Part shown: one piece after another, positions 3,737 through 58,058 of the stretch
How positions within the stretch are numbered: position 1 is the first letter of the stretch
Layout of the letters: the number at the start of each line of letters is the position of its first letter
Assembly: GCA_002999035.1 (NCBI GenBank)
Contig: CP027241.1
Span: forward strand, 623,001 to 687,000
Direction: 5' to 3'
Source: Lachnospiraceae bacterium oral taxon 500
GTDB taxonomy: Bacteria; Bacillota; Clostridia; Lachnospirales; Vallitaleaceae
Length of the DNA: 64,000 nt
The notes under the pieces: model-generated
What the model saw: only the letters and a program-made list of their open reading frames with translations
Database searches by the model: none
Told to the model about the DNA's origin: nothing
Made by a program: the position numbers and the translations under genes

Positions 3737-3810
3737 TTTTTACACTCTCCTTTGCAAATTTCAGTATTATTTTTTATTTAGAAAAACATTATTGATACCT
3801 TCAGTATATC

Positions 3811-4632: not shown

Positions 4633-4643
4633 ACTCTCCCCTC

Positions 4644-5525
4644 CTATCTTTCTGACAAATCATATCCTCTCATCTGTATTAAACCTAATGTGAATGTAAT
4701 CAGAAAAACAAAAAATGCAATCGCCGATGCGTAACCCATTCGATCATTTTTGAATCCAACCTGATATAAATAAGTGGCAAGCGTCTGCGTCGCCCGTCCC
4801 GGACCACCACTAGTCATAACGTAGACTTCATCATAAACCCTGACCGCTCCTGTAATAATAATAATCATATTAATCATGATTGTGTCTTTCATCAACGGAA
4901 CCGTAATACGAAAAAATTTCTGAACCATATTTGCTCCGTCAATTTCTGCCGCTTCATAGACATCTTCTGAAATACTCTGCATTGTCACAATAAATAAGAC
5001 CACTGTATAGCCAATATATTGCCATTGGGAAGCTGCGGCAATGCCATATATCGCACTTCTGGCGTTACCTAAAATATCAACGCCGGATGTGTCAATTCCT
5101 ATCAATTCAAGCAGTGGATTCAGTAATCCGATTGACGGATTATATAACATCTTAAACATTAACCCCGTTACCGTAATCATCAAAAGTGAAGGGATAAAAT
5201 ATATCGTTCGAAAAAGGGACTGCCATTTTCTCAAAAACCGGCTTTCCAAAACTGCCGCGATTATTAGCGAAACCCCAATTTGACAAGCCACCGACATAAC
5301 GGCAAAAACTATGTTATTTTTAAGCGCAATACGGATTGTATCGTCCTCAAATAACTGCTTATAATATTTAAACCCCACAAACTCCGTTTCCGTCCCCATA
5401 GCTCCCCATTTATATAAGCTGTTCACAAAGTTTAACACAATGGGCAGATAAAGAAACACAAGAATCACTGCTATGGCCGGCGCAAGATATATAAACGCAG
5501 TTTTTCTACTATTTTTTCTTCCCAT
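4644..5525 (-). CDS. Sugar ABC transporter permease (CUT1, MalF-type)
   Basis: A 293-residue membrane protein with an N-terminal helix at about residues 10-31 and an EAA loop reading YEAAEIDGANMVQKFFRITV. It is the larger-type partner of the permease 11 bases downstream; together they form the membrane channel. The solute-binding protein lies 38 bases upstream in the same operon. Position corresponds to frlN of the B. subtilis locus. No anomalies were noticed. Confidence 0.88.
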   Translation of the reverse strand: MGRKNSRKTAFIYLAPAIAVILVFLYLPIVLNFVNSLYKWGAMGTETEFVGFKYYKQLFEDDTIRIALKNNIVFAVMSVACQIGVSLIIAAVLESRFLRKWQSLFRTIYFIPSLLMITVTGLMFKMLYNPSIGLLNPLLELIGIDTSGVDILGNARSAIYGIAAASQWQYIGYTVVLFIVTMQSISEDVYEAAEIDGANMVQKFFRITVPLMKDTIMINMIIIITGAVRVYDEVYVMTSGGPGRATQTLATYLYQVGFKNDRMGYASAIAFFVFLITFTLGLIQMRGYDLSER

Positions 5526-5563
5526 GCTTTACTCCTTTTGAAAAAAGTGCAACTTTGAATCTG

Positions 5564-6874
5564 TTATTTCTGTTCCGCTTTCACTTGAGCCGCTGCCTTT
5601 TGAACATCTTTCATTACATCCTTTGCCGATTTTCCGTCAAGCCCTTCTTGCAGGCTGATCATATATTGATCCGCAATTGATGCTTCAACAGCACAATCAA
5701 GCCAGTCTGCAACATTGGTATAATTTTCTGCCTCTTTATACGCCTCAACAAGAGCAAGTGTTGCATTCTCTGAATTAATCCCACCAAGCAGCGCATTAGG
5801 AAGCCCTGACTCTTTTGTCTGCCTATCTGCCATCTCTTTACTCGTCATAAACTTCAGAAACTTAACAGCTATTTCCGGGTACTTACAAGAACTTGACACC
5901 AACCACGCTTCTCCTCCTCCGCCAACAGTCCCCTCATCACCAGCCGCACCTTCCATAATCGGAATCTTAAAAAAGCCCCAATTTTCTGCACCCATAATGT
6001 TATCATATTGGGTGAAATCTTGTGTTGCTTCAAGAATGATTGCAGCTTTTCCAATACCAAATTCTTCACGCACTTGATAGTAGTCTTTAGAATTTACATT
6101 ATTTCCAAAATATCCCTTGCTATTTAAGTCAAGAAATGTCTGCACTGCTTTGATATAAGATTCGTCAGCAAATTCACCAGTCATAGGATTATAATCTTTC
6201 TCTAAGGTAGCAGCCGGAATCATTTTGGCATTCAGCATACCTATCCACCACGATGCATACCAAGGAGCAGAGTTTCCAAACGCAATCGGAGTCACACCGG
6301 TTTCCTTTAACCGTTCACATACGGTAAGAAATTGATCCCAAGTATCTGGAATTTCAAGTTGTTTTTCTTCAAACACTTTTTTATTGTACAACATATACAT
6401 AATGCCGCTTCTATACGGAATTGCGTAGGTCTTCCCGTCAATTGTTGAATTATTGAGAAATGCAGGCATAAAGCTGTCCTTCCATGTCTTATCTTCTTCA
6501 AGATATGGTGTCAGGTCAAGTGCCTTACCCCCACGCGCAAATCGCTTTACCCGCTCACCGGTCCAAGACATATAAATATCAGGCATGTCCCCACCAGAAG
6601 CAATAACTGCCAATTTATCTTTGATTGCCTCATCTGAAACATTTTCCATTTTAATCTCAATATTCTGATTCTCTTTTTCAAACTCGGCCACTGCATCTTT
6701 AAAAAATTGTGCATATGGCTCTTCCGGATACTTATTAAGAAAAGTCAATGTAATCTTTTCTTCTGAAAGCCGCTCATTTTCTCTTCCGGAATCATTTTTG
6801 GGGGTAGTTGTACAACACGCTAATGCCAATATACTCATGACCGCTGCAAGTATCAGTATCAAATTTTTTTTCAT
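5564..6874 (-). CDS. Extracellular sugar/Amadori-compound binding lipoprotein
   Basis: A 436-residue type-1 CUT1 solute-binding protein. It begins with a lipoprotein signal peptide (MKKNLILILAAVMSILALAC) whose lipobox Cys is followed by another Cys, so it is anchored outside the membrane. The mature part has typical family segments, such as FEKENQNIEIKMENVSDEA near the N-terminus and GEAWLVSSSCKYPEIAVKFL in the C-lobe. It would deliver ligand to the two permeases immediately downstream; the position matches frlO. The ligand, probably a fructosamine, is inferred from the kinase and deglycase in the same operon. Confidence 0.87.
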   Translation of the reverse strand: MKKNLILILAAVMSILALACCTTTPKNDSGRENERLSEEKITLTFLNKYPEEPYAQFFKDAVAEFEKENQNIEIKMENVSDEAIKDKLAVIASGGDMPDIYMSWTGERVKRFARGGKALDLTPYLEEDKTWKDSFMPAFLNNSTIDGKTYAIPYRSGIMYMLYNKKVFEEKQLEIPDTWDQFLTVCERLKETGVTPIAFGNSAPWYASWWIGMLNAKMIPAATLEKDYNPMTGEFADESYIKAVQTFLDLNSKGYFGNNVNSKDYYQVREEFGIGKAAIILEATQDFTQYDNIMGAENWGFFKIPIMEGAAGDEGTVGGGGEAWLVSSSCKYPEIAVKFLKFMTSKEMADRQTKESGLPNALLGGINSENATLALVEAYKEAENYTNVADWLDCAVEASIADQYMISLQEGLDGKSAKDVMKDVQKAAAQVKAEQK

Positions 6875-6900: not shown

Positions 6901-7785
6901 TTAAACATTAAAATATTCCGACAATTCCTGTGAGTTGATGTTATAGCTCACCCCTAGTGACCCATCTATAACTACCACTTTTGCCGCATACTCTGCCGCA
7001 CACTGCAGTGATGCCTTTATCTTATTCTCAGCAGGACCCAGCTCGTCAGCTGCCGCCGATAAATAATTCATTAAGAACGCACTAATAAATGAATCTCCGG
7101 CTCCCATCGTATCAATCGCTTTCACTCTACAAATTTCCTGGCTGTAAAACTGTTGACCATCATAAGCTATCGTTGGTTTTTCGCCACGAGTTCCAACGGC
7201 AAGAGAGCACCCCAAGCCGACAACTTCTTTTAATATATTTTTTGTTTCTGCTTCGCTCAAATGGCTACTGGATAGAAAGCTAATTTCCACATAAGGGGAA
7301 ATTTCCAGAATATCTTTGTCGGAAAAGTTATCATAAAAATCATAACAAATCTTAATTCCTTGTTCTGCCAACATTTTTACCTTTTCATTAGAAACCCTTG
7401 CCCCCCGACTAATGCATGCAATATCATAAGTTTTAATATAGGCAACTTCCTCCATGGTAAATTGGATAGGAAAACGATCCGTAACCCCATTAAAATTTAC
7501 TTCCCCAAAAACCCTATCACCGTTTACCAATTCTACTTTCGAATAACCGCTTGACCCAATTTCATGATGCGAATGCTTTGTATCAACTCCGGCTTGTTGT
7601 AAGGTATTTTCTAAAATCGCACCGGCCTTATCATTTGCAAAAACTCCCATAAACGCCGTTTCTGCTCCTTGCTTTTTCGCATGATACGCAATATTGAACT
7701 CGTTACCGCCCGGATACATCCGGTTTTGATGACAATAGATATCCATTGTTGCAATTCCTATTCCAATAATTTTTGGTTGCCTCAT
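6901..7785 (-). CDS. frlD: PfkB-family sugar kinase (FrlD-like fructoselysine 6-kinase)
   Basis: A 294-residue ribokinase-family protein. The N-terminal PGGNEFNIAYHAKKQGAETAF matches PfkB signature 1 (glycine-rich, sugar binding) and AIDTMGAGDSFISAF is signature 2 with the catalytic Asp. It would phosphorylate the imported Amadori sugar at O6 to make the substrate of the SIS deglycase. It is the first gene of the operon behind a strong promoter at 7832-7860, with the binding protein 26 bases downstream. It is about ten residues longer than my recollection of B. subtilis FrlD. Specificity is inferred from context. Confidence 0.8.
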   Translation of the reverse strand: MRQPKIIGIGIATMDIYCHQNRMYPGGNEFNIAYHAKKQGAETAFMGVFANDKAGAILENTLQQAGVDTKHSHHEIGSSGYSKVELVNGDRVFGEVNFNGVTDRFPIQFTMEEVAYIKTYDIACISRGARVSNEKVKMLAEQGIKICYDFYDNFSDKDILEISPYVEISFLSSSHLSEAETKNILKEVVGLGCSLAVGTRGEKPTIAYDGQQFYSQEICRVKAIDTMGAGDSFISAFLMNYLSAAADELGPAENKIKASLQCAAEYAAKVVVIDGSLGVSYNINSQELSEYFNV

Positions 7786-7831
7786 TGCTCTTAAACCTTT
7801 CTATCATCTCGGATTAACACGTCTTATTACA

Positions 7832-7860
7832 AGAATACATAACACCTTCATTTTTGTCAA
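7832..7860 (-). promoter_or_regulatory. SigA-type promoter of the kinase-transporter-deglycase operon
   Basis: Reading the minus strand, TTGACA (7855-7860) and TATTCT (7832-7837) are separated by 17 bases, a near-consensus housekeeping promoter. It lies 47 bases upstream of the kinase start and downstream of the GntR terminator, so the catabolic genes can be transcribed separately from their regulator. Confidence 0.7.
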
Positions 7861-9252: not shown

Positions 9253-10698
9253 TCACTTATCACAACACACAAATCTCTGCTTTTGGCTCTTCGGTCTATC
9301 CGGTATGGTCAACTGTACCAGCCCTTTTTCAATCAATGGATTGATATACGCCTGCATGGCGTATGCCGTCGTACCTATGCCCAGATATTCGGTAATCTCC
9401 TGCCGGCTGCGGGGCGTTTTCAAAAATAGGAGCAGTTCCGCTTCCTTATCTGTCATCTTCTCCGGCTGGGCTTTAACGGTATCATTGTACAATGTTACCG
9501 TAAACGTTCCCCGCTCATCTGTAAAAACCGGTTCTCTCAGACCGAATTCTTTCATCTCACGGCGAATCGTCGGAATCCCGGAATATCGGTTTTCCGTCAA
9601 ATGCATAACTTCCAAGGCCGTTACCAGCACCGGATTTCTGGTATCCGGCTGCATTTTCCCTAATTGATCGGTTCTCAGCCGGCCATAAATGCCGCCGGGA
9701 TTGCGAATTTCCATCCGATCCGGATACATCAAAATCTGTATCGGCATTCCTTCCGCATGAATACTGTAATCCCTGTGGACTAAGCTATTCAGTACCGCTT
9801 CCCGAACTGCCGTAATCGGATAGTCGGTCTGATCCTCTCTTTTACCCGTTTGCGGATTGATAATTGTCTTTTGCCGCATATTTTTACGGACAAAGGCAAT
9901 AGCTTGCTCCAGCATTTCCGGGATATTTCCCTCTATTCTTTGATTATCAATAAAGCGTTCCCCAGACGCACCCAACTCGCCGATCTCTTCCCCCGGCAAA
10001 TGCACGGCGGTAATACATAGTTGAGGAAAATAGCCTTGTGGATAGAGGCAAAACAGCAAGACAGAACTCAATGTTACCGCACCGTCTCTGGTAATACTCA
10101 TCAACTCCTCAATCGTTTCATCCGGCAATAAGCTTAAATTAGGCTTTTTCGCTTTTAAACGGCTGATATAATCAGCCAGCAACACTTTGTCCAATACAGC
10201 TAACGATGCTCTCGGCACCGGCCGGATATCATCCTGATATTTTTTACGGAATGCTTCATAACTGTATACTTCATATTCCGTCATCGGTTCATCGCTGTCG
10301 CCCACCCGAACATAAGAGCCTTTGAGCCGGCCGCGTCCCTGATAGTAGCATGGCCTTTCCGCCAAGTCTAATCCCGGAATCTCAGCAGATACAAAAAACT
10401 TTCCCTCTTTTTCTGCCATCGTCAGCAGCGGCCGAACCACCGGCTCCATTTGAAGGCATTGTTCATTGATCTTTTTTTGAATATCCTGTGGGTCATATAC
10501 GCCACATTCTTTGAAATCATTCTCCTCATCCACTCCAAAAACAAGAACTCCACCATCGTCCTGATTGGAAAAAGCAGACAGCGTATCATACAGTTTTTTG
10601 GGACATCCCGATTCCGCCGCCTTAACCTCCAGCGTCTGTGCTTCACATTTTTTTGTCTGGATATCTTTTAGCTTTTCCAGCAATTCCTCGCTTGTCAT
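9253..10698 (-). CDS. AlbA_2 (Schlafen-like) / HATPase_c_4 putative transcriptional regulator
   Basis: 481 residues. The N-terminal part (about 1-150, with LEVKAAESGCP and GGVLVFGVDEEN) matches the AlbA_2 DNA-binding fold. The middle has the HATPase_c_4 signature AVREAVLNSLVHRDYS and MEIRNPGGIYG. The C-terminus looks like a winged helix (SRQEITEYLGIG). The family is often annotated as a RecG-like helicase but lacks helicase motifs. An upstream ATG at 10746 is possible; I chose the ATG at 10698 because AGGAGG lies a few bases before it. That start codon is embedded in the last unit of a repeated 12-mer array, suggesting autoregulation. Confidence 0.82.
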   Translation of the reverse strand: MTSEELLEKLKDIQTKKCEAQTLEVKAAESGCPKKLYDTLSAFSNQDDGGVLVFGVDEENDFKECGVYDPQDIQKKINEQCLQMEPVVRPLLTMAEKEGKFFVSAEIPGLDLAERPCYYQGRGRLKGSYVRVGDSDEPMTEYEVYSYEAFRKKYQDDIRPVPRASLAVLDKVLLADYISRLKAKKPNLSLLPDETIEELMSITRDGAVTLSSVLLFCLYPQGYFPQLCITAVHLPGEEIGELGASGERFIDNQRIEGNIPEMLEQAIAFVRKNMRQKTIINPQTGKREDQTDYPITAVREAVLNSLVHRDYSIHAEGMPIQILMYPDRMEIRNPGGIYGRLRTDQLGKMQPDTRNPVLVTALEVMHLTENRYSGIPTIRREMKEFGLREPVFTDERGTFTVTLYNDTVKAQPEKMTDKEAELLLFLKTPRSRQEITEYLGIGTTAYAMQAYINPLIEKGLVQLTIPDRPKSQKQRFVCCDK

Positions 10699-45958: not shown

Positions 45959-48916
45959 ATGAAACGCTCCATATCACTTCGGACGCAAATTATTTTATTG
46001 ATGACTTTTCTGGTAATCTTGCAGAATATTTCTTTAGTAATGTCTTTATCATTTTCTAATGCTTTTTTTCTGCTGGATTCGGAATCCTTTCGTCTGTTTA
46101 ATAATACCACTACGGCCCGCAAACAAGCACTGAATAATGAGCTGGGGCAGGTCGTCCGCTTAGTGGCCGATGATACCCGCCTGTTTACTCAGGTACTGCA
46201 AAAAGTTTCTGCCAACACTAATAAGAACCGTCTGTCCGAACTGGATGTTTATAACAAAATTGCCACAACCGGTGCGGAATATTTAATCCACCTGCTGCAA
46301 AGCAGTAATATCAACGGTGCTTTCTTTATGCTGGCCTCCGATGACAAACAGCCGATGCCTTCGGTTTACATTCGCAGCGCTGCGCCCAAGGATTCTTATG
46401 CTTTGCCGGAAAACTTTCTGCTTGAACTTGGCCCCGTTTCTGTTTCTCAAAAGTATTTGATTCCGACCAGCTCGCATCATAGCCTGTCCGCGCCTTTTGA
46501 CTTTAACAGCTCCGACTCTGAAAAATGGGATTTTTATTATCAGCCCACCAAAGCCGCTCTTGACTTTCCCAAAGCGGAAATTGAGCGCTATGGCTATTGG
46601 ACTACCCCATCGAGCCTACTGTCTCATTTGCCGACCAGCGTGTTTTATACTCTGCCGCTGCTGAACTCAAGCGGTTATCCGATTGGTGTGATCGGTATTG
46701 AAATCACCCAAAATTATTTTTCCCAGCACTACTTGCCATTGATTGATCTGCCCTATCAGGACAGTTTTTATGCAATCACTCCGATGAATGACCAGATTTT
46801 GACTTTGGACTGGTTTATTTCCAGCAGTCCACTGGCACAAATAGCTTTAAAAAAGCAAAAAAATCTGCATTTAACTTCCGCCAAGATTTCCGACAATATT
46901 TATGTCTCTTATTTGGATGAAATCGGCAATGTCTACTGCTTTGTCCAGCCGCTGACGCTGTACAGCCAAAACTCACCCTTTATCCAAGACAGCTGGAACC
47001 TGGTCAGTTTTGTACCAAAGGACACTCTGCACGGCACCTCCTCTCAGGTGCGCCGAACAGTGCTTATCAGTATTGGTTTAACTACTCTGGCGGCTTTTAT
47101 TGTCATCTTTTTTATGGCTCGTTTTTCCACTCGCAAAATCTTCGGAATGTCCAAATATTTAACTGAACTGGATCCCTATCAGGCCATTCAGCTCAAGCGA
47201 ACCGGCATGCGCGAGTTTGATGAGTTAGCCGAGGCGGTAGAAAAACTGAATCAAAGCGTCATTCACGCTTCGGAAACCACTTCCCGGATCTTAAAGCTGT
47301 CGCTCCTGCCGATCGGCGGCTTTGAGCTGACAGTCGAATCAGATCAGGTGCTGATCACCGACTATATTTATTCTCTGCTTCAATTAAACCCGGAGACAAA
47401 GCTTTCGATTGAGGAATGGAAAAAGCATTATGCTTTGCTGACAGCTTCGCCGGCACCGGACTATGACAATATTTATCATTTTTCCGTCCGCAATAAATCA
47501 GACGGAATTTGGCTGCGGATTTTAGAAAGTAAAACCCCGACCGGCAGTGTCGGCGTCATTTTGGATGTCACCAGAGATATTGAAGAACACCGCCGACTGG
47601 TTCATGAACTGGACTTTGATGCCATGACGCATCTTTATAACCGGCAGGCCTTCAAACGGGAAGCCATCGCCAAAATCCTGTATGAACCGAATAAAATCGG
47701 CGCCATGATTTTTTGTGATTTGGATAATCTGAAATATATCAATGATAATTTCGGTCATGAAATCGGTGACCGCCTGATTCTGAGAGCCAGTGAAATGTTC
47801 CATGAGTTCGGCACCTACGGCGGCATTGTCTCCCGGATTTCCGGCGATGAGTTTGCCATTTATCTGCACGGCTTTTCTTCCAAATCGGAAATCAGAAAAC
47901 TGATTAACCGGCAGTTTAAGCGGAACGAACGTTACGAACTGCGAACACCGGACGGCTCCTCCCACCGCATTCGTTTTTCCTCGGGTATCGCCTGGTACCC
48001 GGAAGATTCCGACGATGTCGGCGACTTGCTCAAACTGGCCGATTTTGCCATGTATGAAGCCAAGCATAAGGAAAAAGGTGTTTTATATGAGTTTAATAAA
48101 AAATCCTATGAAAGTAAGTCCTATTTGCTGGAAAATCGAGAAGCTATTCACCGCTTGATTGATGAACGGCTGATTCATTTTAATTTTCAGCCGATCGTTG
48201 ATTTGCGCACCGGCTCCATTTACGCCTATGAAGCATTAATGCGCTCTTCCAGCGATGCTTTTAAAAATCCGCTGGAGATTCTGTCGGTCGCTGCTGCACA
48301 GTCTCAGCTGGCGCAATTGGAACGGCTGGTCTATTCAGTTGTTTTGGAAACCCTTGACCGGCATGCTGATGAATTAAATGGCCTGCATATTTTTATTAAC
48401 AGTATTCCCAGCCATCTAATTAGCCCAGAAGAAATCATGACGCTGGAAGAAACCTATGGTTATCTTTTCCCGCAGTTAGTGATTGAGGTAACGGAACGGG
48501 AATCTGGCAGTTTAGAGGAGCAGCTAAGCGACAAGTTTTCTTTCCTGCGCGATTACGGCATGAAGCTGGCACTGGATGATTTTGGCAGCGGTTATTCCAA
48601 CGAATCCCGAATTTTGACAATCCGGCCCAATATTGTTAAAATCGACATGATGCTGATTCAGGGTATCCATGAGGATCCCGACAAGCAGCAGCTGATCGCT
48701 AATTTAGTTTCTTTCTGTCATGCCCGAAACATCTTATTAATCGCTGAGGGCGTGGAGGAGGAAGATGACCTGGCTAAGCTGATAGAGTTAAATGTTGATC
48801 TGGTACAGGGCTTTTATGTGGCAAAACCCACCCCCGGCTTTGACCCGATTCCTACCGCCATCCGCGATCAGATCCAAGAGCTGCATGCCCGGTATCATTC
48901 GGGGAATAACGCTTAA
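45959..48916 (+). CDS. Membrane GGDEF-EAL c-di-GMP enzyme with extracellular sensor
   Basis: 985 residues. Helices at about 10-32 and 366-388 bracket a large extracytoplasmic, Cache-like domain. A HAMP-like linker, a PAS-like region, GGDEF (SRISGDEFAIY, about 628) and EAL (YAYEALMRSS, about 757) follow. The EAL catalytic set looks intact (VIEVTERESG, LALDDFGSGYSN, IVKIDMMLI, LIAEGVEEEDD, VQGFYVAKP). The GGDEF variant SGDEF is compatible with activity; no RxxD inhibitory site is seen. It can therefore make or break c-di-GMP in response to an outside signal. Confidence 0.92.
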   Translation: MKRSISLRTQIILLMTFLVILQNISLVMSLSFSNAFFLLDSESFRLFNNTTTARKQALNNELGQVVRLVADDTRLFTQVLQKVSANTNKNRLSELDVYNKIATTGAEYLIHLLQSSNINGAFFMLASDDKQPMPSVYIRSAAPKDSYALPENFLLELGPVSVSQKYLIPTSSHHSLSAPFDFNSSDSEKWDFYYQPTKAALDFPKAEIERYGYWTTPSSLLSHLPTSVFYTLPLLNSSGYPIGVIGIEITQNYFSQHYLPLIDLPYQDSFYAITPMNDQILTLDWFISSSPLAQIALKKQKNLHLTSAKISDNIYVSYLDEIGNVYCFVQPLTLYSQNSPFIQDSWNLVSFVPKDTLHGTSSQVRRTVLISIGLTTLAAFIVIFFMARFSTRKIFGMSKYLTELDPYQAIQLKRTGMREFDELAEAVEKLNQSVIHASETTSRILKLSLLPIGGFELTVESDQVLITDYIYSLLQLNPETKLSIEEWKKHYALLTASPAPDYDNIYHFSVRNKSDGIWLRILESKTPTGSVGVILDVTRDIEEHRRLVHELDFDAMTHLYNRQAFKREAIAKILYEPNKIGAMIFCDLDNLKYINDNFGHEIGDRLILRASEMFHEFGTYGGIVSRISGDEFAIYLHGFSSKSEIRKLINRQFKRNERYELRTPDGSSHRIRFSSGIAWYPEDSDDVGDLLKLADFAMYEAKHKEKGVLYEFNKKSYESKSYLLENREAIHRLIDERLIHFNFQPIVDLRTGSIYAYEALMRSSSDAFKNPLEILSVAAAQSQLAQLERLVYSVVLETLDRHADELNGLHIFINSIPSHLISPEEIMTLEETYGYLFPQLVIEVTERESGSLEEQLSDKFSFLRDYGMKLALDDFGSGYSNESRILTIRPNIVKIDMMLIQGIHEDPDKQQLIANLVSFCHARNILLIAEGVEEEDDLAKLIELNVDLVQGFYVAKPTPGFDPIPTAIRDQIQELHARYHSGNNA

Positions 48917-48960
48917 AACCTCAGCCAAAGCTGTCCTCTAAAAGGGAAGCAATAGGGAAC

Positions 48961-48990
48961 AAAAACCGCCGGCTCAGCCGGCGGTTTGCT
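48961..48990 (+). terminator. Terminator of the GGDEF-EAL gene
   Basis: Perfect stem AAACCGCCGGC / GCCGGCGGTTT with a 3-base loop, 45 bases after the stop codon. Confidence 0.75.
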
Positions 48991-49080
48991 CTGCCCCTGT
49001 AAGGGGCTGTTACTGGCTGCGCTTGTAAGCGCACCGAAGGTCTGCCTCTCGCATACTGCTTCAGCTACCGCTAAAGCAGT

Positions 49081-49315
49081 TTACTTCTTGCTTCCTTTTT
49101 CCGGCTCACCCGTGAACGCGTCTATATACTCTTTTAAACTGATTTGATCTTTTAACTTATCTTCCAGTAACTGATTCCTTATGTATTCCTGTATTTTCTT
49201 CGCATTTTTTCCTACCGTATCTACATAATATCCTCGACACCAAAAATTTCGATTCCCATACTTGTACTTTAAATTCGCTATATGATATTTGCATTCCCAA
49301 AGCTCTCGAACTAGT
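49081..49315 (-). pseudogene. tnpA: IS200/IS605-type TnpA transposase, 3' remnant
   Basis: About 78 codons read IANLKYKYGNRNFWCRGYYV, then DTVGKNAKKIQEYIRNQ and LKEYIDAFTGE before the stop. This is the C-terminal part of Y1 transposases, including the RGYYVDTVGKN segment that carries the catalytic Tyr. The HUH-containing N-terminus is missing; the frame is cut a few bases from the CRISPR array. Hairpin-rich sequence at about 49010-49080 may be the element's end. Confidence 0.8.
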
Positions 49316-49341
49316 TTCTGTGAGAGTTATAATATCTCTTA

Positions 49342-49639
49342 GTTTTATATCATTCTAAATTAACAAAGCTCTCAAACTAAGACACACGCATGCGACCGAT
49401 CTTGTGGTTTGACATCATTCTAAATTAACAAAGCTCTCAAACTTATCCGTCATATATGCGCCATGCTTGCGAGTTTTACATCATTCTAAATTAACAAAGC
49501 TCTCAAACTATACCATCAATCTCGCTATCTTGGATGATGTTTTACATCATTCTAAATTAACAAAGCTCTCAAACCACTTTATGGACGATATCAAAGTGCG
49601 AAAAGTTTTACATCATTCTAAATTAACAAAGCCTCAAAC
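49342..49639 (-). CRISPR. CRISPR array, 5 repeats and 4 spacers
   Basis: 36-base repeats start at 49342, 49407, 49473, 49539 and 49605. In crRNA direction (minus) they begin GTTTGAGAGCTTTG and end ATGATGTAAAAC. Spacers are 30, 30, 30 and 29 bases. The two repeats farthest from cas genes each have a point change (ATATC at 49342, GTTTG at 49407). The repeat next to the cas genes (49605-49639) lacks one base, leaving 35. Repeat type and length fit type II-A. Confidence 0.97.
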
Positions 49640-49690
49640 CTAAAATTAACATTGAGGTTATCACCGAGCATTACATTTTGCGAAATGTTG
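49640..49690 (-). promoter_or_regulatory. Presumed CRISPR leader, short
   Basis: 51 bases separate the csn2 remnant stop from the first repeat. The leader end reads TTAATTTTAG next to the repeat (minus strand). Orientation follows cas gene direction and the degenerate far-end repeats. Confidence 0.5.
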
Positions 49691-49876
49691 TTAATTCAAA
49701 GATGCATCAATTACACATAAGTCCTTATCTATTATAACACACTTTTCCTGTTTTAGGGTATAATTTTTTTGACCTTCCAGATTAATCAGGTGTATTTTTT
49801 CATAAAAACAAAATTCATATAATTGTCCTACCTGTTTTTCTGTAAGAAATTGTTTTAAATTCAGTATCCACACCAA
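49691..49876 (-). pseudogene. csn2: csn2 remnant (C-terminal about 60 residues)
   Basis: The frame reads ILNLKQFLTEKQVGQLYEFC, then FYEKIHLINLEGQKNYTLKQ and CVIIDKDLCVID. This pattern resembles the C-terminus of Csn2 (family length about 220). It sits exactly where csn2 belongs, 20 bases after cas2 and before the array, but the first about 160 residues are gone and no ribosome site or ATG precedes it. An internal deletion is the simplest reading. The identification rests on motif memory and position. Confidence 0.7.
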
Positions 49877-49896
49877 CTTTATGGCACATATAGAAC

Positions 49897-50187
49897 TTAT
49901 TGCACGTAAATAATTTCACCTACAATGAAATCCATCTTATTATATTGTTTTTCCGTAACTCTTAATACCTGCACCAGTCCTTCAGGCGGTTTATTTTTCT
50001 TTATATTATCAACCACTATGTCAGCAACAGAACTATTTTGTGCCAGTTTGCAATACACTGATTCCTGAACCATCATAAAGCCTGATTTAATTAAAAACTT
50101 ACGGAATGTACGATACTCTCTGCGATTTGACTCTGTTAGTACAGGCAAATCAAAAAATACTATTACTCTCATAAACCTATAACTCAT
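49897..50187 (-). CDS. cas2: CRISPR-associated Cas2
   Basis: 96 residues: [20 protein letters not shown] with the conserved catalytic-position Asp at the end of strand 1, [15 protein letters not shown] and a C-terminal GEIIYVQ. An internal Met at residue 6 is an alternative start. It overlaps the cas1 end by 11 bases. In type II systems Cas2 bridges two Cas1 dimers in the spacer integrase. Confidence 0.93.
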
Positions 50188-51049
50188 ACCTGTAAAATTT
50201 TATCTCCGAAACATCCTCACTATTAATTGCGTCAAACACACTTTTACAATAAATCTTTATTGCATTGTTGACGAATTCTGTTCTCCCGTTAATTTTCACC
50301 TCATTTTGAAGAATGGTCAACAGCTCCATCTTCTCGTCATGTTCAAATTTAACCGGTTGCATCTGTTTTACCTTAAGGTCTACAATCGGTCTAAACGGTT
50401 CCATCAAATCTGATGCCAGATTAAATTGATTAAACATATTATCATGAAAGAGACCAAGCTGTGTAAGGTATCCATTTGCTGTGATACAGCGGTTAAATGC
50501 TGATAATAACAGAGAGTAGCCATAATTAAGTGCCGCATTCATACTGTTTTCTTCCGTTCTGGTAAAATCCAGTCCAAACAACGCATTAAAATACACCTTT
50601 GCGGCATGCCCCTCCCTGTTTGAGGCATCTGCAAACTGAAGCTCGTTAATATAGCCGTACAACATATCCGCTTCTTCAAGGCTCCAAAATTCCAGATGTT
50701 CTGCCTGTTTGCGAATTTTTTCTGTAACTATCTCAGTCCACACAGCTTTTTTTACCTCCTCTTTCCATGTAATCTGTGTGCGTATCTTTGTGCTGGTATC
50801 ATGTGAGCCATAATAGCCAACCAATTCTGAAGACGGATTTCTCTTTTCATCACAAAAAATCACCTTTATTTTCTTTTTTGAGAGTTCATTTAAAAGGGCA
50901 GCAGTCAGAGAAACAGCGGTTGATTCAACAATTAATATTTCCATTTCACTCAGATGGATTTTCATGGTATCCATACGGCGAACCACCATATATCCCATTT
51001 GATAATCCAGTTTTGCATTACTCGATATCACAACTGTTCTCCAGCTCAT
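50177..51049 (-). CDS. cas1: CRISPR-associated Cas1 (type II)
   Basis: 290 residues, N-terminus [20 protein letters not shown] as in type II-A Cas1. A metal-binding Glu is in [16 protein letters not shown] context, with [20 protein letters not shown] (His, Glu/Asp) further on. It is intact and starts 9 bases after cas9. It catalyses spacer integration, though csn2 is damaged here. Confidence 0.95.
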
Positions 51050-51058
51050 ACCTCTCTC

Positions 51059-54000
51059 CTATCTGTCCGTTTTTTCAGTGAAAATCCATTCTTTCTTTTC
51101 ATACAGTCCAGTAACGGATTGACTGATGACTGCCGGCTTGTCTGCTGCTTTTAAGTGCTTACTGATTGATATTATCCCTGATCTATCAGACTCTCCGATT
51201 AATTTCAGATTTGTCTCTGTAGTTCCAATCCTCGTTAAGTGTAATATCCGTAATAATGCCTCACATTGCTGTTCCGGATCAAGCACAACAAACTTCTCTT
51301 TTCCATCTAATAATTTCTGCCCAAATGCATTCGGACGCTTTGCATAGACAGCATGAGCATGCTTATCTGCCAGTATATCATACAGCCTGCAGTTTTGTTC
51401 AGCACTTATCTCTTCCTCCAGTATATGCCACGTGACCGCCTTCTCAACCTTCTTAATGTATGTTGTCCAATTTTCAGGCAGGTAAAGGCTCATAGCATTT
51501 CTTAAAATCAACCTATCTCCTGTTTTTCCCGACAAATGGAACTGATATCCGTTAATTTCAAGAAGTGACTGAATCTTTAATTTCCTACGTAAGATATTCA
51601 CTTCACCATACCCCAGTACCTCTTCGCAGTATCTCTCCAGACCATTTGCCTCTCTTTCCACCTTTTCCTTGCAATATAAAGGCAGTCCTTCAATTGTGAC
51701 ATTCTCTTTTTTACCCTCTTTATGATGTACAATAAAGTAGTAAGCTATGGTCGCTGATGTAAAGCCACCATACTTTGTTACATCCTTCATCCTTGTATCA
51801 GATGTTTTTAATGGAAGATAGTTTTCAGGTTTTGCTTTCTTTGCAGAATACAGTGTTGCATTGGCTATACCTCCATGCTGTTCAAAGTTCATTCTTGTCA
51901 AAAGTGGAGTATTTTTCTGCATCATTTTTCTAACATTTACAATGGTTCCCTTCTCATCTTTCCTCTTTGCAATCCAAGCTGTCTCACAACCACGAATAAC
52001 ATCCCATTCAAACATCTTAGCCAGATTGTAACGATTCTTCTCCTTATCCTTCTCATAGTCCTTGCGGATAAAATTCCATGGATTTTTCGTAAATTTAGTA
52101 TGATATACATTTCCAACCACAATGTTCAGGTAAGCATCCTGTGCATGATGAAAATCATTTACAAGGCGGCTTTTCAAAAATCCGTTGTCCCGTCTGAAAT
52201 CTGATACATTTGATGCTTTTGCATATACAATATCAGTGCCTGTAAATAACTGTTCCAAGAGGGTTGCAACCCCCTTTGTTCCCTGTCCGGTTTCTACCAG
52301 CTGCCTTGCAATAAAATCTCCCAACTGTTTTTCCGTAAAAGGAGTATTTGATATAAGTCTTGTATATTTCTCATCTGTAATTAACTTTTGTTTATGGAGA
52401 GCGTTCCATAATTCCTGAACTTTAGGATTTGCCTTTATCTGTTTAGGTATAGGATATAGGTCTTTTTTAATATGCTGATTAGCCTGTCTGTTAACCAATA
52501 CGAGATTGTTCATAATACTGTCATCTTTAACATAGTGTCTTGGATAAATATGGTCTATATCATATAAATTATCATCATACAGCCTGCCCAAATCTATCTC
52601 TTCACCTGTATACATGTCTCGTCCCATCTGCATATAATACAGAAACAGCTTTTTACTTCTTAATTTACCGCTTTCATTCGCTTCTGAAAGTTCCTGCTTC
52701 CAATTATGATTTTCTGTATTCTTTATATTCTTATAAAGCTCTAAGAGCTGACTTCCCCTTGAAGCTTTTCTTCCCTTATCACCCTTTTCTTCCTCTGTTC
52801 TGGTCATTTCAACAAAAATTCTTTTAGGTGCATATCCCATTACCTGCTCAATTTCACGTATAAGCAACAACGTCTGCCAAATCATACGTTTTACCGGTAC
52901 TGAAAAATAGCTGTCCTGCAAATCTTCATAAGTAAAATCGCTTAATGACTTCATAGCAACTGTACTCTGTTTTGCCAGTTCTTCTTTGAAGGTAAAATCA
53001 TCACTGTTAATCAGCTCCATAAAGTTAAGGCTATACTCCCACATTGCCCGCCCCAATGACATAATCTCACCGGTAGACTTGTCACATCCGCTAAGTGTAA
53101 GAAGTGCTTTGGAGAATCTTCCCCAATCCTTAAATTTGTAGCCAAGAATTCTTTTTAACTGATTTTCATCTAATATACCCTGTTCCACATACTTTGTAAG
53201 CCGCTGTTTTAACATCTTTTTGGAATCACCAAAAACAGTACCCCAATAAATTATATCTTCTGCAGTAGCAAGGATAGCGTCTTCTTTTAGGCGTTCACCA
53301 AAAATTGCATACATTTTTCCATAAGAGGATAAAGAGTTATTAATAGTCTTATCTATTCCTGTCACCTGCTCTTCAGAGCTGATTAAGCTTTGTGCCACCA
53401 GATAAGAACAAAGCTGTTTCTTAGTTAAACGCTTTCCCTTCATAAAACAGTCTTTATAGATTTGCTGTTTTAGCTTTGTATCCAATCGTTCACCATCAAT
53501 ACAAAGGTTGTTGATTTCATTTAGTACACAATATCTCTCGTAAGCAAGAGACGCTTTTGGCATGACCTTTTCACCCTGAATATATGTACAGGTTCTGATA
53601 AGGTTACCGATAAAGGCTTCTGAGGTTGCACTCATATCCACTTTATCGTTGATATTCCAAGGCAGAACTGCCCCCTCTTCTTTCCTCACAATCCAACCGG
53701 TTTTACTATTTCCCCCAAGCGGTCCCACATAATATGGAATCTGAAATGTAAAAAGCTGTATTATCCTTTCTGAAACTGTCAACCCACTCTCATCCTTGTC
53801 TTTTAAGAATGGCAGATAATTTTCGGCATTTTTTAATATTCTTTCCATTTCTTTTTTATGTACCTGATTTGGGATGACACCATTGGCACCGGTCAACTGT
53901 TTAGGAAGAAACTGTTCTTTTTCAATCTTTTCCATAACATACTGAATATCTTCATCATCTGTAATATCTTTAAATGCCTTTTTTATTGTCGAATATATAT

Positions 54001-55153
54001 CATCCGCTTTTCTTCCCTTCATATTTCGTCTGTATTTATTACTTTCTGCAATTGCATCTGTTGAATTAAGGGAATTAACGTATGCCGAATAAGTTCCGTC
54101 TACATTTGAACGAAACATCATATCATATTCTTCCTTAGTCTTGTATTTACGAAACAACATTTTTAAAAGCTTTAAATCTTTGCAATGCTTTTCATATAAT
54201 TCCACTCTGGCACAGGAGAGATAGTCATATCCCTTGAGAGTTCCTGCTAAAACAGCATAGTCATAGATACTTTTAAGTTGTTCAATGACTGCATACTCTT
54301 CCTCAGTTAATTGTTCCATTAACTCCGCTATCTTATCTGAATAAGAAAAATCATGAAAACACAGAGGCACTTTCTCTTCCGTCTTTTCGTCAAAAATAAG
54401 CTTAGCATTTATACTCAATCCACATAAACACTTTAACAACTCATTTACGCTTTTATCTTTTTTAACTACACCAAATAACTCCTGCAGCTCTTCATGTTTT
54501 TTCTTTCTTCCGGTATCAGAATTGCTGATAATGTCTATTACCTGTTGAACAGACTTATGCTCTATTATCATCTCATAATCATTTTCAAACTTGTCCAAAA
54601 CCTCCTGATATACGGCATCTACCTGCTCAGTGTTTAACGCATCTCCTTCTGCATTTAATAGGAAATGACCTCTGTGCTTAAACATATTGGCAAGTGCCAG
54701 GTAAACTAAGCGAACATCGAATTTTGCCCCTGTATTTTCCAGATCAAGCAACGCCTTTCTAAGATGAAAGATTGTCGGATATTCAGTATAATAATCAGTA
54801 TCCTTATAATTTTCATCATCAAAGATTCCATTTTTTGAGTTTAATTTTTTATCTTTGTCCTCAAGGAAATATTTACTGTTTTCCATACGGATAAAGAAAT
54901 TTGGATCAATTTTATTTATTGCATCACCGAAATAGCTTTTTAGCAAACCAAGTCTAACAACCTGACGCTGTCGTCGTCTTCTGTTAACTCTATATTTCCA
55001 CCTCTCAGCTGCTGACTCTGCCGTTTCAAATTCACGAATGCCCCACATATCTTTTCCTTTTTTTCTCAACAACTCATACTTGGTATTTGTTACTGCCCAG
55101 CCTACAGAGCCGGTTCCCATATCCAGTCCTAAAAAGTACTCTTGTTTTTCCAT
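51059..55153 (-). CDS. cas9: Cas9 endonuclease, type II-A size
   Basis: 1364 residues. RuvC-I YFLGLDMGTGSVGWAVT (Asp11), Arg-rich bridge helix RVNRRRRQRQVVRLGLLKSY, a large recognition lobe, RuvC-II RIFVEMTRTEEEKG (Glu about 782), HNH YDIDHIYPRHYVKDDS (His about 868), RuvC-III HHAQDAYLNIVVGNVY (Asp about 1006) and a C-terminal PAM-interacting region. All catalytic residues are present and the length is close to SpCas9 (1368). PAM cannot be deduced by eye. Confidence 0.98.
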   Translation of the reverse strand: MEKQEYFLGLDMGTGSVGWAVTNTKYELLRKKGKDMWGIREFETAESAAERWKYRVNRRRRQRQVVRLGLLKSYFGDAINKIDPNFFIRMENSKYFLEDKDKKLNSKNGIFDDENYKDTDYYTEYPTIFHLRKALLDLENTGAKFDVRLVYLALANMFKHRGHFLLNAEGDALNTEQVDAVYQEVLDKFENDYEMIIEHKSVQQVIDIISNSDTGRKKKHEELQELFGVVKKDKSVNELLKCLCGLSINAKLIFDEKTEEKVPLCFHDFSYSDKIAELMEQLTEEEYAVIEQLKSIYDYAVLAGTLKGYDYLSCARVELYEKHCKDLKLLKMLFRKYKTKEEYDMMFRSNVDGTYSAYVNSLNSTDAIAESNKYRRNMKGRKADDIYSTIKKAFKDITDDEDIQYVMEKIEKEQFLPKQLTGANGVIPNQVHKKEMERILKNAENYLPFLKDKDESGLTVSERIIQLFTFQIPYYVGPLGGNSKTGWIVRKEEGAVLPWNINDKVDMSATSEAFIGNLIRTCTYIQGEKVMPKASLAYERYCVLNEINNLCIDGERLDTKLKQQIYKDCFMKGKRLTKKQLCSYLVAQSLISSEEQVTGIDKTINNSLSSYGKMYAIFGERLKEDAILATAEDIIYWGTVFGDSKKMLKQRLTKYVEQGILDENQLKRILGYKFKDWGRFSKALLTLSGCDKSTGEIMSLGRAMWEYSLNFMELINSDDFTFKEELAKQSTVAMKSLSDFTYEDLQDSYFSVPVKRMIWQTLLLIREIEQVMGYAPKRIFVEMTRTEEEKGDKGRKASRGSQLLELYKNIKNTENHNWKQELSEANESGKLRSKKLFLYYMQMGRDMYTGEEIDLGRLYDDNLYDIDHIYPRHYVKDDSIMNNLVLVNRQANQHIKKDLYPIPKQIKANPKVQELWNALHKQKLITDEKYTRLISNTPFTEKQLGDFIARQLVETGQGTKGVATLLEQLFTGTDIVYAKASNVSDFRRDNGFLKSRLVNDFHHAQDAYLNIVVGNVYHTKFTKNPWNFIRKDYEKDKEKNRYNLAKMFEWDVIRGCETAWIAKRKDEKGTIVNVRKMMQKNTPLLTRMNFEQHGGIANATLYSAKKAKPENYLPLKTSDTRMKDVTKYGGFTSATIAYYFIVHHKEGKKENVTIEGLPLYCKEKVEREANGLERYCEEVLGYGEVNILRRKLKIQSLLEINGYQFHLSGKTGDRLILRNAMSLYLPENWTTYIKKVEKAVTWHILEEEISAEQNCRLYDILADKHAHAVYAKRPNAFGQKLLDGKEKFVVLDPEQQCEALLRILHLTRIGTTETNLKLIGESDRSGIISISKHLKAADKPAVISQSVTGLYEKKEWIFTEKTDR

Positions 55154-55183
55154 GCTTTATCTCCTTTTATTTAAAATCTTGTA

Positions 55184-55211
55184 TTGACTTTTCCCACAAA
55201 TATGTTATTCT
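55184..55211 (+). promoter_or_regulatory. Promoter of the tracrRNA
   Basis: TTGACT (55184-55189) and TATTCT (55206-55211), 16 bases apart, pointing away from cas9. It predicts transcription start near 55218, just before the anti-repeat. Confidence 0.65.
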
Positions 55212-55217
55212 GTAATT

Positions 55218-55311
55218 GAATTAACAAAGCGAGTGCAAATAAGGATTTATCCGATATCGCCTCAGGGTCCGCATTGTGCGGTTAAAAGATCTATTTAATA
55301 GGTCTTTTTTT
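55218..55311 (+). ncRNA. tracrRNA
   Basis: The anti-repeat AATTAACAAAGC pairs perfectly over 12 bases with the crRNA repeat segment GCUUUGUUAAUU. After a bulge (tracr GAGUG against AGA), CAAAT pairs with the repeat start GUUUG. AAATAAGG and ATCCGATATCG match the nexus region of SpCas9-type tracrRNAs. A GC stem CCGCA/TGCGG and a terminator AGATCTAT/ATAGGTCT followed by T7 complete it. It is encoded on the strand opposite to cas9, between cas9 and the hydrolase gene. Confidence 0.87.
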
Positions 55312-55430
55312 ATTTATTTTCAAAATAACTCAATACGATTAAGTAAAAAACTACTATTTTTTTCTTTAAAAAAGCAGTAATGATTTTGCAGTCATTACCG
55401 CTTAAACCAAACGTTCTATTTAGTTTCCTA

Positions 55431-56483
55431 CTATTCTTTTCTCGTCCACTCCTCCAGCGCCTTCAATAAAATCCGGTCACTATCGATCTTTGCTGCTTCA
55501 TTAGCTTCATATTCGCCACCTACAGACATATTGGACAGCACCGGTGGACCAAAGAAAATATGTCCGGCTTTTTCATAAGTGACCAGCTTTTTCTCTGCAG
55601 GGTATCTTTTAATAATATCCTCTGCCATATCAGCCGATGGCCACATCTTATCTTCCTTACCGGCAAAAATCAAGAGGTTTGCTTTTGCCTTGCTTACATC
55701 AATCAATGCAGCTTCTTTGTTTTCAGCATTTTCCGTCACCGAGCGATAAATCGGCTCATATTCTATAGGTGCATTAAAGAACATCCGCATCATGAACTTA
55801 CCATAAGTCGAGCCTGATGCTGCCGTAAACGGCAGATAAGCCAGTTCCTTTCCCTGAAAGCTCCAGGATGAGTTGCTGCTTGAATAATCGAATGAAAGTC
55901 CCTGAAAGACATAGGTAGACGGCGCATATAAAACAACGTTATCTACCAGATCGGGATATTTTCCTGCCAAAAGAAGGCACATCTCTGCCCCTTTAGAGCC
56001 TCCCAATATAGTCAGTGGTTTAGCTGCCACTGCATTTTTTTCAATCTCAGCATAAGCTTCCGTGAAAAAATCCAGTGGTACTTTAACCAGTTCTTTTTGC
56101 TGATTGTCACGGCCGAAAAAGTAGAGGGAATAAACCTCATAGCCCTCCTTAGCCAGATTTACCGCCATGTTTATATTGCTGCTACCCTCGCTGCCGCCAA
56201 AGGTAATTACAGTTCCCTGATGAGTAATCTTCTCCGGGCGCAAATGATATCCGTTTAAGTAATTGCCCTTTACCACACTAATATTTATCCCGGGCAGGTT
56301 TGATTTTTCCGGCTCTTCCTGATTGATTTCACGATAGATGGAATTAGCCTCCAATGTACTTTCCCTGATTTTCTCTTTACCCTTGGTAATTTGACCATTA
56401 ATAAACCTCACTACAATCAGCAGAATAATTAGCACTGCTATTGTGATAAAAATGCCTTTGAGTACTTTCCACAATTTCTTCAT
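55431..56483 (-). CDS. Alpha/beta hydrolase, BAAT/acyl-CoA thioester hydrolase C-terminal type
   Basis: 350 residues with an N-terminal membrane anchor (about 5-27, VLKGIFITIAVLIILLIVVR). The extracytoplasmic domain has a nucleophile elbow GGSKGAEMC (Ser about 162), LVDNVVLYAPS and a late His in YEKAGHIFFGPP, giving a Ser-Asp-His triad. The family includes acyl-CoA thioesterases and bile-acid conjugating enzymes, but outside the membrane another ester or amide substrate is more likely. Monocistronic. Confidence 0.8.
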   Translation of the reverse strand: MKKLWKVLKGIFITIAVLIILLIVVRFINGQITKGKEKIRESTLEANSIYREINQEEPEKSNLPGINISVVKGNYLNGYHLRPEKITHQGTVITFGGSEGSSNINMAVNLAKEGYEVYSLYFFGRDNQQKELVKVPLDFFTEAYAEIEKNAVAAKPLTILGGSKGAEMCLLLAGKYPDLVDNVVLYAPSTYVFQGLSFDYSSSNSSWSFQGKELAYLPFTAASGSTYGKFMMRMFFNAPIEYEPIYRSVTENAENKEAALIDVSKAKANLLIFAGKEDKMWPSADMAEDIIKRYPAEKKLVTYEKAGHIFFGPPVLSNMSVGGEYEANEAAKIDSDRILLKALEEWTRKE

Positions 56484-56709
56484 TTTAGTCTTCTCCCATC
56501 CTCGGCTTGCACTAAATATTCTGCTACATATTGTTATTAAAACATAATATTCCGACAGCTTCAGTACGCTGTTTTTCTGTCTACATATTTACCAAAAACA
56601 ATGTAAATACTAATTAATATAATACAACGTTTCGCTTTTTGTGTCAACAAAAGCACTTTGCTTCTTATTTGCCTTTAATAAGTGTAAAATTCAACTTTTT
56701 TGATATATA

Positions 56710-57070
56710 TTGCTTAAAATTACATTTTCTTATCTACAGTCCTTGAACCATGTTTTGATTGTTTATGTATTTAAAACTCCCGTATTAAGAAATTTCTGTA
56801 TAATATGTATTACCCTCAATTGTATGTTGATTCCGCTTAGCGCACTTAAGGCTCCGATAGTGAATGATATTTTCGGTATGGGGAGTGAGCTTTTAAGCTT
56901 TGCAGGGATTTTTGCTTCTATTGGCGGCATTATGGGAGCAGTTCTTTTACCTTATATCGCTAAAATATTATCTCCGCTTAGAATTACAATTCTGGGAACA
57001 TTTCTGTTAATTATCGGAATGACTTGCATACCTGTGGGAAGGCTTGTTAAAGGCAATGCAATTCTGTATA
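56710..57070 (+). pseudogene. Major facilitator transporter fragment
   Basis: Residues such as PLSALKAPIVNDIFGMGSEL, LLSFAGIFASIGGIMGAVLL and LSPLRITILGTFLLIIGM are the middle helices of an MFS efflux protein (macrolide-efflux type). Both the first helices and everything after about the ninth are missing, and the frame runs into unrelated TPR-like sequence. Confidence 0.65.
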
Positions 57071-57821
57071 CAGTGAACGGAAAAGAAGAAGATGCCAAAA
57101 AGTCGGTAGCCTTACACGAAAAGCCTTAACCCTTCTTTCTCAAAATGATGATTCGGATTTAAATGAGTTTAATATAAGGATGAATATAGCAAAACTAAAA
57201 ATCGTCATTGATCCTGATGGTGCACTTGCAGAGTTTAATAAGATTAATTACCTCGGAATTGCTGGTACAGATATAGCACGCCTGTTGCACAAAAAAGGAG
57301 AAACTGATGAAGCTTTAGAGCGGTATACAAACGCTTTATTCTATAATCTCATGAGGGACTTGGATTTATCGCTGAATATTTCTTTAGCAATTGCATCTCG
57401 TGGGACTAAAAAAGACTTCAGAGAAGCCTGTGACTTAATAGATCGGAGTATTGCTTATTCAGATTCCGCCAGTTTGGAAAAAAACTGTTACACTTCAAAG
57501 CTTAAAGTTATCCTTCTTATAACAAAAGTATTGGCTCTATCTTGCCTAACTGAGTATGAAAGTATGAAAAGTACAATTGACGAGGCATATGCTTTGGCTA
57601 AAAAATATGATGACAACCCTAATAATTCTTTTCGCAACTTCATAAAATTTTGGCATGCAAAAGAAAATTTTAAGCCACTTGCAAGTGATGATCTGGGACA
57701 GAGTGCTGTCCGCAGCATAGATAATTTTTTTGCAACCAAACCGTATACTGTACAAAAGGAATTAGAGGAAAATGTCTTTGAAGCCAAAAAATATTGGGAA
57801 AGTATTAGAAAGCTATTATAG
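57070..57821 (+). pseudogene. C-terminal part of a TPR-type regulator, frameshifted
   Basis: The frame from 57180 gives 213 helical residues with TPR-like repeats (EALERYTNALFYNLMRDLDL, ACDLIDRSIAYSDSASLEKN). Upstream, NGKEEDAKKSVALHEK in one frame continues as ALTLLSQNDDSDLNEFN in the next; one base lost in the A-run near 57120 explains the break. The N-terminal DNA-binding part is absent. The original protein was probably an XRE-TPR regulator. Confidence 0.55.
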
Positions 57822-58006
57822 TTTGTGTCAAGTACTCGTTGGCAAATTCTTTTACCTGTAAATTTGCAACATCCTGTTGTAAATTTAAACTATTCATCAT
57901 AACTGTATCAAAACACCTTCCCTTGGTGGACATCTTAAAGGACGTCAGAATGCCATTTTAAGTGCCACCTGAGTGCCAAATTATAAATATAAGTTTTTGC
58001 ATGAGC

Positions 58007-58045
58007 AAAAAACGGAACCACCGCCAAGCGCATGGTTCCGTTTTT
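58007..58045 (-). terminator. Terminator of the five-gene glycan operon
   Basis: Stem AAACGGAACCA / TGGTTCCGTTT flanked by A and T runs, 14 bases after the DUF2264 stop on the minus strand. Confidence 0.75.
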
Positions 58046-58058
58046 AATTTTATTTCTC

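Follow-up and report, generated by a model that had tools for sequence, protein, structure and literature searches.

The window is a 64,000-nucleotide stretch of DNA that corresponds to positions 623001-687000 of C1, in a single-contig genome of 3,201,383 bases (3.20-Mb) that is 99.98% complete. It contains a type II-A CRISPR-Cas locus on the minus strand in the order cas9, cas1, cas2, a remnant of csn2, and, at 49639-49298, an array in which five repeats are followed by a 14-nt stub. Cas9, a Csn2 match, and an array of this repeat each occur once in the genome. The features of the locus and its surroundings are as follows.

51059-55153, minus strand: cas9, 1364 aa, open, with all Cas9 domains (TIGR01865, E=8e-255; Pfam REC, PI, HNH, and RuvC)
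50177-51049, minus strand: cas1, 290 aa, full length (TIGR03639, E=2.5e-90)
49897-50187, minus strand: truncated cas2, 96 aa, made of 91 native residues and 5 from out-of-frame csn2 DNA
49913-49917, minus strand: deletion junction between cas2 codon 91 and csn2 codon 153, with ~500 bp missing compared to relatives; precise to a few bases
49691-49915, minus strand: csn2 3' remnant, 74 codons and a stop, matched by profiles and by a model of relatives
49640-49646, minus strand: leader end ATTTTAG (ATTTGAG in 47 of 61 parsed relatives)
49605-49639, minus strand: first repeat, 35 nt, one A missing at the leader-side end
49342-49574, minus strand: repeats 2-5 and their spacers, repeat 5' ends unaltered
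49298-49311, minus strand: truncated sixth repeat, 14 nt, at the trailer end of the array
49081-49299, minus strand: 3' part of an IS200-like tnpA that directly adjoins the truncated repeat (PF01797, E=3.7e-6), frame open
55184-55211, plus strand: predicted tracrRNA promoter, TTGACT-16-TATTCT with a TG before the second hexamer, from a promoter-site scan
55213-55316, plus strand: predicted tracrRNA, with hairpins, a T-run, and an anti-repeat that can form 14 bp with the repeat
48917-58058, no strand: low-GC island containing the locus; the same-genus genome G020 has the site without the island

An earlier sequence-only reading of this DNA had called Cas9 and Cas1 intact, and the profile matches bear this out, as both are full length. 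By eye, Cas1 (50177-51049) displays a C at an otherwise conserved E in the stretch FNR[E]I.

One deletion truncates cas2 and removes most of csn2

Only the C-terminus of Csn2 is left between cas2 and the array, as the sequence-only reading had proposed. The profile search that it recommended matched the fragment to Csn2, covering positions 126-181 of 181 in PF09711 (E=1.1e-7) and 162-222 of 222 in TIGR01866 (E=1.4e-13). The proposed size of about 60 codons needs correction. The homology, which covers 153-223 of the 224 positions in a model built from 14 relatives, spans 49694-49915 (74 codons); it extends past the 61-codon open reading frame and starts where the shortened cas2 has not yet ended. 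The II-A signature gene is therefore incomplete here, its first ~152 codons, two thirds of the protein, being gone. The remnant is probably untranslated, because it contains no in-frame ATG and the first ATG beyond the cas2 stop (49889) is out of the csn2 frame. Its earliest candidate start is a TTG at 49876.

Cas2 had also been taken to be intact, and on this point the earlier reading was mistaken. In a model of relatives, cas2 homology ends at residue 91 of 106. The last five residues of the protein, IIYVQ, are read from csn2 DNA in another frame; the csn2 frame at this place encodes NYLRAI. In other words, there is a single breakpoint, at which cas2 breaks off after codon 91 (of 106) and csn2 takes over from codon 153 (of ~224) in another frame. 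The same two points lie 500 bp apart by coordinate arithmetic in the locus of a relative (L037). The junction is known from one assembled genome, and its position is certain to a few bases only.

What does Cas2 lose by this truncation? The protein lacks its last 15 residues; of the two genes, cas1 is complete and cas2 is not. The core fold of Cas2 is present, as indicated by matches to PF09827 (E=1.1e-17) and to TIGR01573 (E=4.9e-20, up to residue 85 of 96). The C-terminal strand that binds Cas1 is absent, since the alignments of the window Cas2 to the structures 5xvn_E and 6qxf_K end at residue 91. The Cas2 of the relative L037 aligned to residue 106. A portion of PMC12216489 describes residues 92-113 of S. 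pyogenes Cas2 as essential for Cas1 binding; the natural truncation of the window Cas2 starts at residue 92. According to the same portion, the Cas1 sheet of E. faecalis and S. thermophilus is extended by the C-terminal strand of Cas2, and E. coli no longer acquires spacers when the C-terminus of its Cas2 is altered. An excerpt of PMC6620040 states that acquisition in vivo requires Cas9, Cas1, Cas2, and Csn2, and that Cas1-Cas2 suffices in vitro. Because Cas1-Cas2 integrates without Csn2 in vitro, the loss of Csn2 alone is no proof of a block.

cas2 and csn2 in related loci

Relatives of the locus were collected by a Cas9-alignment scan of genome contigs, which found 338, of which the best 80 were fetched; a query with a single Cas9 protein had found none. 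Within the best 80 of 338, the nearest Cas9 loci encode proteins 38-55% identical to the window Cas9. Both genes are held fully by 65 of the best 80, and in 65 of 65 cas2 matches over 1-106 and csn2 from 1-3 to 221-223. Thus, the Cas9 lineage of the window travels with csn2 (65 of the best 80 loci), as expected of II-A. The comparison of the cas2-array interval in relatives, another check named in the sequence-only reading, returned a complete csn2 in every fully held locus (65/65 among the best 80 of 338). The fragment is Csn2, and no relative examined carries such a short Csn2 as a normal gene; neither of the two outcomes that were to count against that reading was seen.

The remaining 15 of the best 80 comprise ten without a match, four whose csn2 is cut at a contig end with cas2 complete (L090, L099, L102, and L106), and L095. 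In nine of the ten, judged by length, the contig ends within cas9 or shortly beyond it. The tenth, L109, shows no cas1, cas2, or csn2 match in 5.8 kb beyond cas9; its Cas9 (2364-6566) continues in frame into a C-terminal rubredoxin domain (NF045768, E=3.1e-22, below cut-off), which is either a deletion fusion or a misassembly of the MAG. L095 (CALWWW010000055.1, an Oscillospiraceae MAG) matches neither cas1 nor cas2 and retains csn2 171-222. At 9980-10213, its cas9 stop overlaps the cas1 start (MSWRTG), which runs straight into csn2 codons ~171-222. A single deletion there left next to nothing of cas1, nothing of cas2, and only a minor part of csn2, and the contig stops 21 nt past csn2.

In 19 separately fetched loci of the order (L035-L053), 11 of which share sequence with the best-80 set, cas2 is complete in 19 and csn2 near-complete in 18. 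The csn2 of L051 (genome G225) matches over 23-221 due to an in-frame TGA at codon 22 (7670-7850). L051 otherwise has a complete cas2, a leader end of ATTTGAG, and repeats 1 and 2 that agree. Csn2 scored above the cut-off in 33 of 392 order genomes: 31 near full length (including G225 with its TGA), the window, and G228. The csn2 of G228 is split over two contigs (L180 and L181), and the sequence at the breaks resembles a transposon by eye, which would fit an insertion sequence within the gene. In a sample of the phylum, 5 of 398 genomes exceeded the Csn2 cut-off, four of them near full length and the fifth being the window.

The leader-repeat junction

A section of PMC5382924 gives ATTTGAG or CTRCGAG as the leader-end motifs of II-A loci, with only CG in a third group, and lists ATTTGAG as the commonest (87 of 167 II-A loci). 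Among 61 distinct parsed relatives, the leader-end 7-mer is ATTTGAG in 47 and G occupies position 5 in 60; a few differ from ATTTGAG elsewhere in the 7-mer. In the 61st, L105, the parse is shifted; by eye it reads ATTTGAG, and its lone repeat difference is the shifted last base. Thirteen loci that were unparsed at the junction were kept out of the 61, and four of them (L038 and L078 from the same genome, L067, and L072) also have G at position 5 by eye. The window leader end, ATTTTAG, matches neither ATTTGAG nor CTRCGAG.

The repeat next to it is altered as well, and the sequence-only reading mentions neither change. Repeat 1 equals repeat 2 in 60 of the 61 parsed relatives but not in the window, where repeat 1 is one A short (GTTTGAGGC for GTTTGAGAGC) and repeats 2-5 keep that A. 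Ordinary II-A acquisition copies the leader-end repeat, and the change in repeat 1 therefore postdates the last leader-end acquisition that was kept. Spacer crRNAs in the usual type II scheme take nothing from the 5' part of repeat 1, so this change should spare interference.

Parts of PMC6895254 and PMC5382924 report that the leader-repeat junction directs integration, and mutation of the junction abolished integration at both repeat borders in the text of PMC6895254. That text also reports that length changes in the upstream part of the repeat are tolerated for the second integration site in S. thermophilus. Given this tolerance, the 1-nt loss from the repeat may be mild by itself. The trailer end of the array comes 14 nt into the sixth repeat, which gives way there to an IS200-like tnpA of which 72 codons remain. 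The tnpA remnant matches NF033573 (E=1.3e-7, below the cut-off of that model), and its frame is open.

Interference components and array transcription

Six Cas9 residues, D11, E782, H868, N892, H1003, and D1006, are invariant with six relatives; they are presumably the equivalents of the SpCas9 catalytic residues. A tracrRNA is predicted whose anti-repeat is complementary to the 36-nt repeats, as in II-A systems. Its promoter call rests on position, because promoter-like sites are common in the region (31 vs 22.0, sd 4.1, in shuffles). The tracrRNA hairpin was not among the results of a generic terminator scan, and an RNA-family search of 48500-56500 gave no match at the gathering score.

How might the array be transcribed? 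Promoter scans identified no array promoter with confidence. In the csn2 genes of 73 relatives, which are related and so not independent, TATAAT occurs in the last 45 nt of 26 (vs 15.7, sd 2.8), and 0 of 200 synonymous shuffles reached 26. A promoter score of at least 9 was found near the csn2 end in 33 of the 73 (vs 23.1, sd 3.2), and 0 of 200 shuffles reached 33. The mean promoter score was unexceptional, being reached by 15 of 200 shuffles. A speculative and rather doubtful idea is that in this II-A group the csn2 3' end carries the array promoter, such that acquisition-killing deletions that keep a transcribed array must stop inside csn2. It would account for this locus and L095 each keeping only the last ~52-74 csn2 codons, and, if true, it would mean that the csn2 tail is kept by selection as a DNA element and is not the leftover of a protein. 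Against it, the window has TGTAAT at that site (with TGT-TATAAT ~20 bases upstream), and the L095 contig shows no array. Literature searches covered csn2 truncation, csn2 pseudogenes, Cas9 loci without adaptation genes, and promoters in csn2; among the matches listed, judged by titles and abstract starts, none describes this deletion or a csn2-borne array promoter.

Spacer targets

The 19-20-nt ends of five spacers were searched for as exact matches in viral contigs. A candidate for spacer 4, one 19-nt viral match (L138), was rejected because only 4 of the 10 other bases of the spacer agree and because a single hit of this kind is, by estimate, near chance in a collection of that size. Comparison of the array with phages and plasmids gave no convincing spacer target by eye among the matches listed, and the best of these look like repeats or short chance matches. 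No self-target was found in the genome: outside the locus there are two matches, with E values of 0.15 and 0.28. The viral contigs searched do not contain the exact 36-nt repeat. In MT835488.1 ('Bacteriophage sp.' from human faeces), positions 64217-64391 hold six array matches, the best at ~76%; this sequence may carry a related CRISPR array.

Origin and age of the locus

The island that contains the locus has a GC content of 34-40% vs mostly 41-52% around it. In G020, the flanking GGDEF/EAL and DUF2264 genes are 199 bp apart (L148, 5897/6097), and in the window ~9.1 kb lies between them. The comparison of the site covers G020; in G021 (89% complete), the DUF2264 gene was not found. Among 40 order genomes with a Cas9 match, that of the window is the only one from its family, and two other genomes of the genus are without this Cas9. 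A search of the family gave distant Cas1 proteins only (32% identity), in two of 21 other genomes. Most likely, the locus was acquired horizontally as part of the low-GC island. The same island holds a 139-codon piece of an MFS transporter at 56710-57129 (PF07690, below cut-off), probably another truncated gene.

Conserved sites have changed at 1 of 147 positions in cas9 (rank 38 of 81), 1 of 90 in cas1 (rank 20 of 78), 0 of 24 in cas2, and 0 of 4 in csn2. A relaxed-selection test gave no signal for any of these four genes. Long decay of the locus thus finds no support here, as the remaining genes show no excess change at conserved sites. The damage would thus be recent or too small to see, and some constraint conceivably remains on the sequence of cas1, cas2, and csn2.

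Interpretation

These findings converge on a model, which appears highly probable, of a horizontally acquired II-A locus in which the destruction of the acquisition machinery goes back mainly to one ~500-bp deletion. At the deletion, cas2 codon 91 is followed out of frame by csn2 codon 153. Judging from II-A homologues, a Cas2 without its C-terminal strand should be unable to hold Cas1, no Csn2 would be left to complete the capture complex, and the altered leader-repeat junction would be a poorer integration site. No new spacers would be expected from the combined loss of the Cas2 tail and Csn2 with a poorer junction. If the array is transcribed, Cas9 and the tracrRNA could still use the existing four or five spacers, which would then serve as a fixed memory. 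The sequence-only reading had suggested that acquisition was lost and interference kept. Its first half is strengthened, because the Cas2 tail, Csn2, the leader end, and the first repeat are all affected: acquisition is very probably lost, spacer acquisition in vivo is predicted to be absent, and the array is probably frozen. Its second half, the retention of interference, is plausible from the genes and predicted elements that remain.

An alternative, possible though on the unlikely side, is that interference too has already fallen silent, with the whole locus in decay, and that the deletion is merely the first visible damage. Such a state would fit a short array (five repeats and a stub) cut at its trailer end at the IS200-like remnant, and the TGTAAT of the window at the place of the TATAAT seen in 26 of 73 csn2 genes of relatives. 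It would also fit the failure to find a spacer target in viral contigs or among the phage and plasmid matches listed, and the two other genus genomes without this Cas9. However, cas9 is open over 1364 codons and ranks 38 of 81 for changes at conserved sites (1 of 147), the predicted tracrRNA has a promoter-like site and a T-run hairpin, and repeats 2-5 are intact at the end that forms crRNA.

The sequence-only reading had also raised a drift toward a II-C-like state, which the truncation of Cas2 by the same deletion speaks against. II-C loci are without csn2 and keep Cas1-Cas2; here Cas2 is broken too, so a shift to II-C is not supported. A csn2 remnant is present and cas2 is truncated, whereas a II-C locus would have no csn2 and complete cas1 and cas2. 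It is very improbable that the system is evolving in this direction and acquiring with Cas1-Cas2 alone. Cas1 and 91 Cas2 residues are left, and Cas1-Cas2 integrates in vitro without Csn2 (reported in part of PMC6620040), but the Cas2 segment reported as essential for Cas1 binding is gone, the leader end and first repeat are altered, and the loss in repeat 1 is absent from repeat 2. An assembly or sequencing artefact is scarcely credible either: the junction is known from assembled sequence alone, but it is clean, it lies in a single-contig genome that is 99.98% complete, and further changes are found ~275 bp off at the array start. Finally, that the 61-codon open reading frame is a functional mini-Csn2 can hardly be entertained, because, despite an open frame and 0 of 4 conserved-site changes, it has no in-frame ATG, the first post-cas2 ATG is out of frame, two thirds of the protein is absent, and such a protein is not a normal gene in any relative examined.

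Comparison with known systems

Under the preferred model of acquisition lost mainly through one deletion, the locus represents a clean natural case in which acquisition would be lost, yet cas9, the predicted tracrRNA, and the working halves of the repeats are intact. The II-A loci of Lachnospiraceae and relatives (e.g., L058-L063, Cas9 53-55% identical) share with the window the order cas9-cas1-cas2-(csn2)-array and 36-nt repeats of the GTTTGAGA type. Unlike the window, they have a Cas2 of 106 aa and a full Csn2 of ~224 aa and, where parsed, a G at leader-end position 5 and identical repeats 1 and 2. The change in repeat 1, which was not copied into repeat 2, would be a sign, readable in sequence alone, that no spacer gained later by ordinary leader-end acquisition has been retained.

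The edge of the deletion falls almost exactly at the border, defined in the laboratory, between the Cas2 core and the Cas1-binding tail. Because it stops at this border, the deletion is a natural test of the need for the tail. The SpCas2 structure PDB 5zyf (92-residue chain) likewise ends near residue 91-92, and the chain length suggests that it is a laboratory protein. The window Cas2 aligns with 5zyf over residues 6-91 but occurs in nature and has five further residues; a dimer of the SpCas2 N-terminal domain is mentioned in an excerpt of PMC6620040. As a warning for annotation, 'cas2 present' need not equal a working acquisition module.

Natural loss of function is likewise found in the degrading II-A loci of Mycoplasma gallisepticum from house finches. 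As told in part of PMC11893278, cas1 or cas2 is inactivated in three isolates, but these also have an inactive Cas9, whereas cas9 is spared in the window. The main events there are cas9 stop codons or the loss of all cas genes, so interference goes. L095 resembles the window in that its deletion ends inside csn2 and leaves C-terminal codons beside an open cas9. It differs in that cas1 is nearly gone, cas2 is gone, and no array is visible, the contig ending 21 nt after the csn2 stop. Thus, decay within a II-A locus is a known kind of event, and what is specific here is one deletion that cost Cas2 its Cas1-binding tail and Csn2 the greater part of its length.
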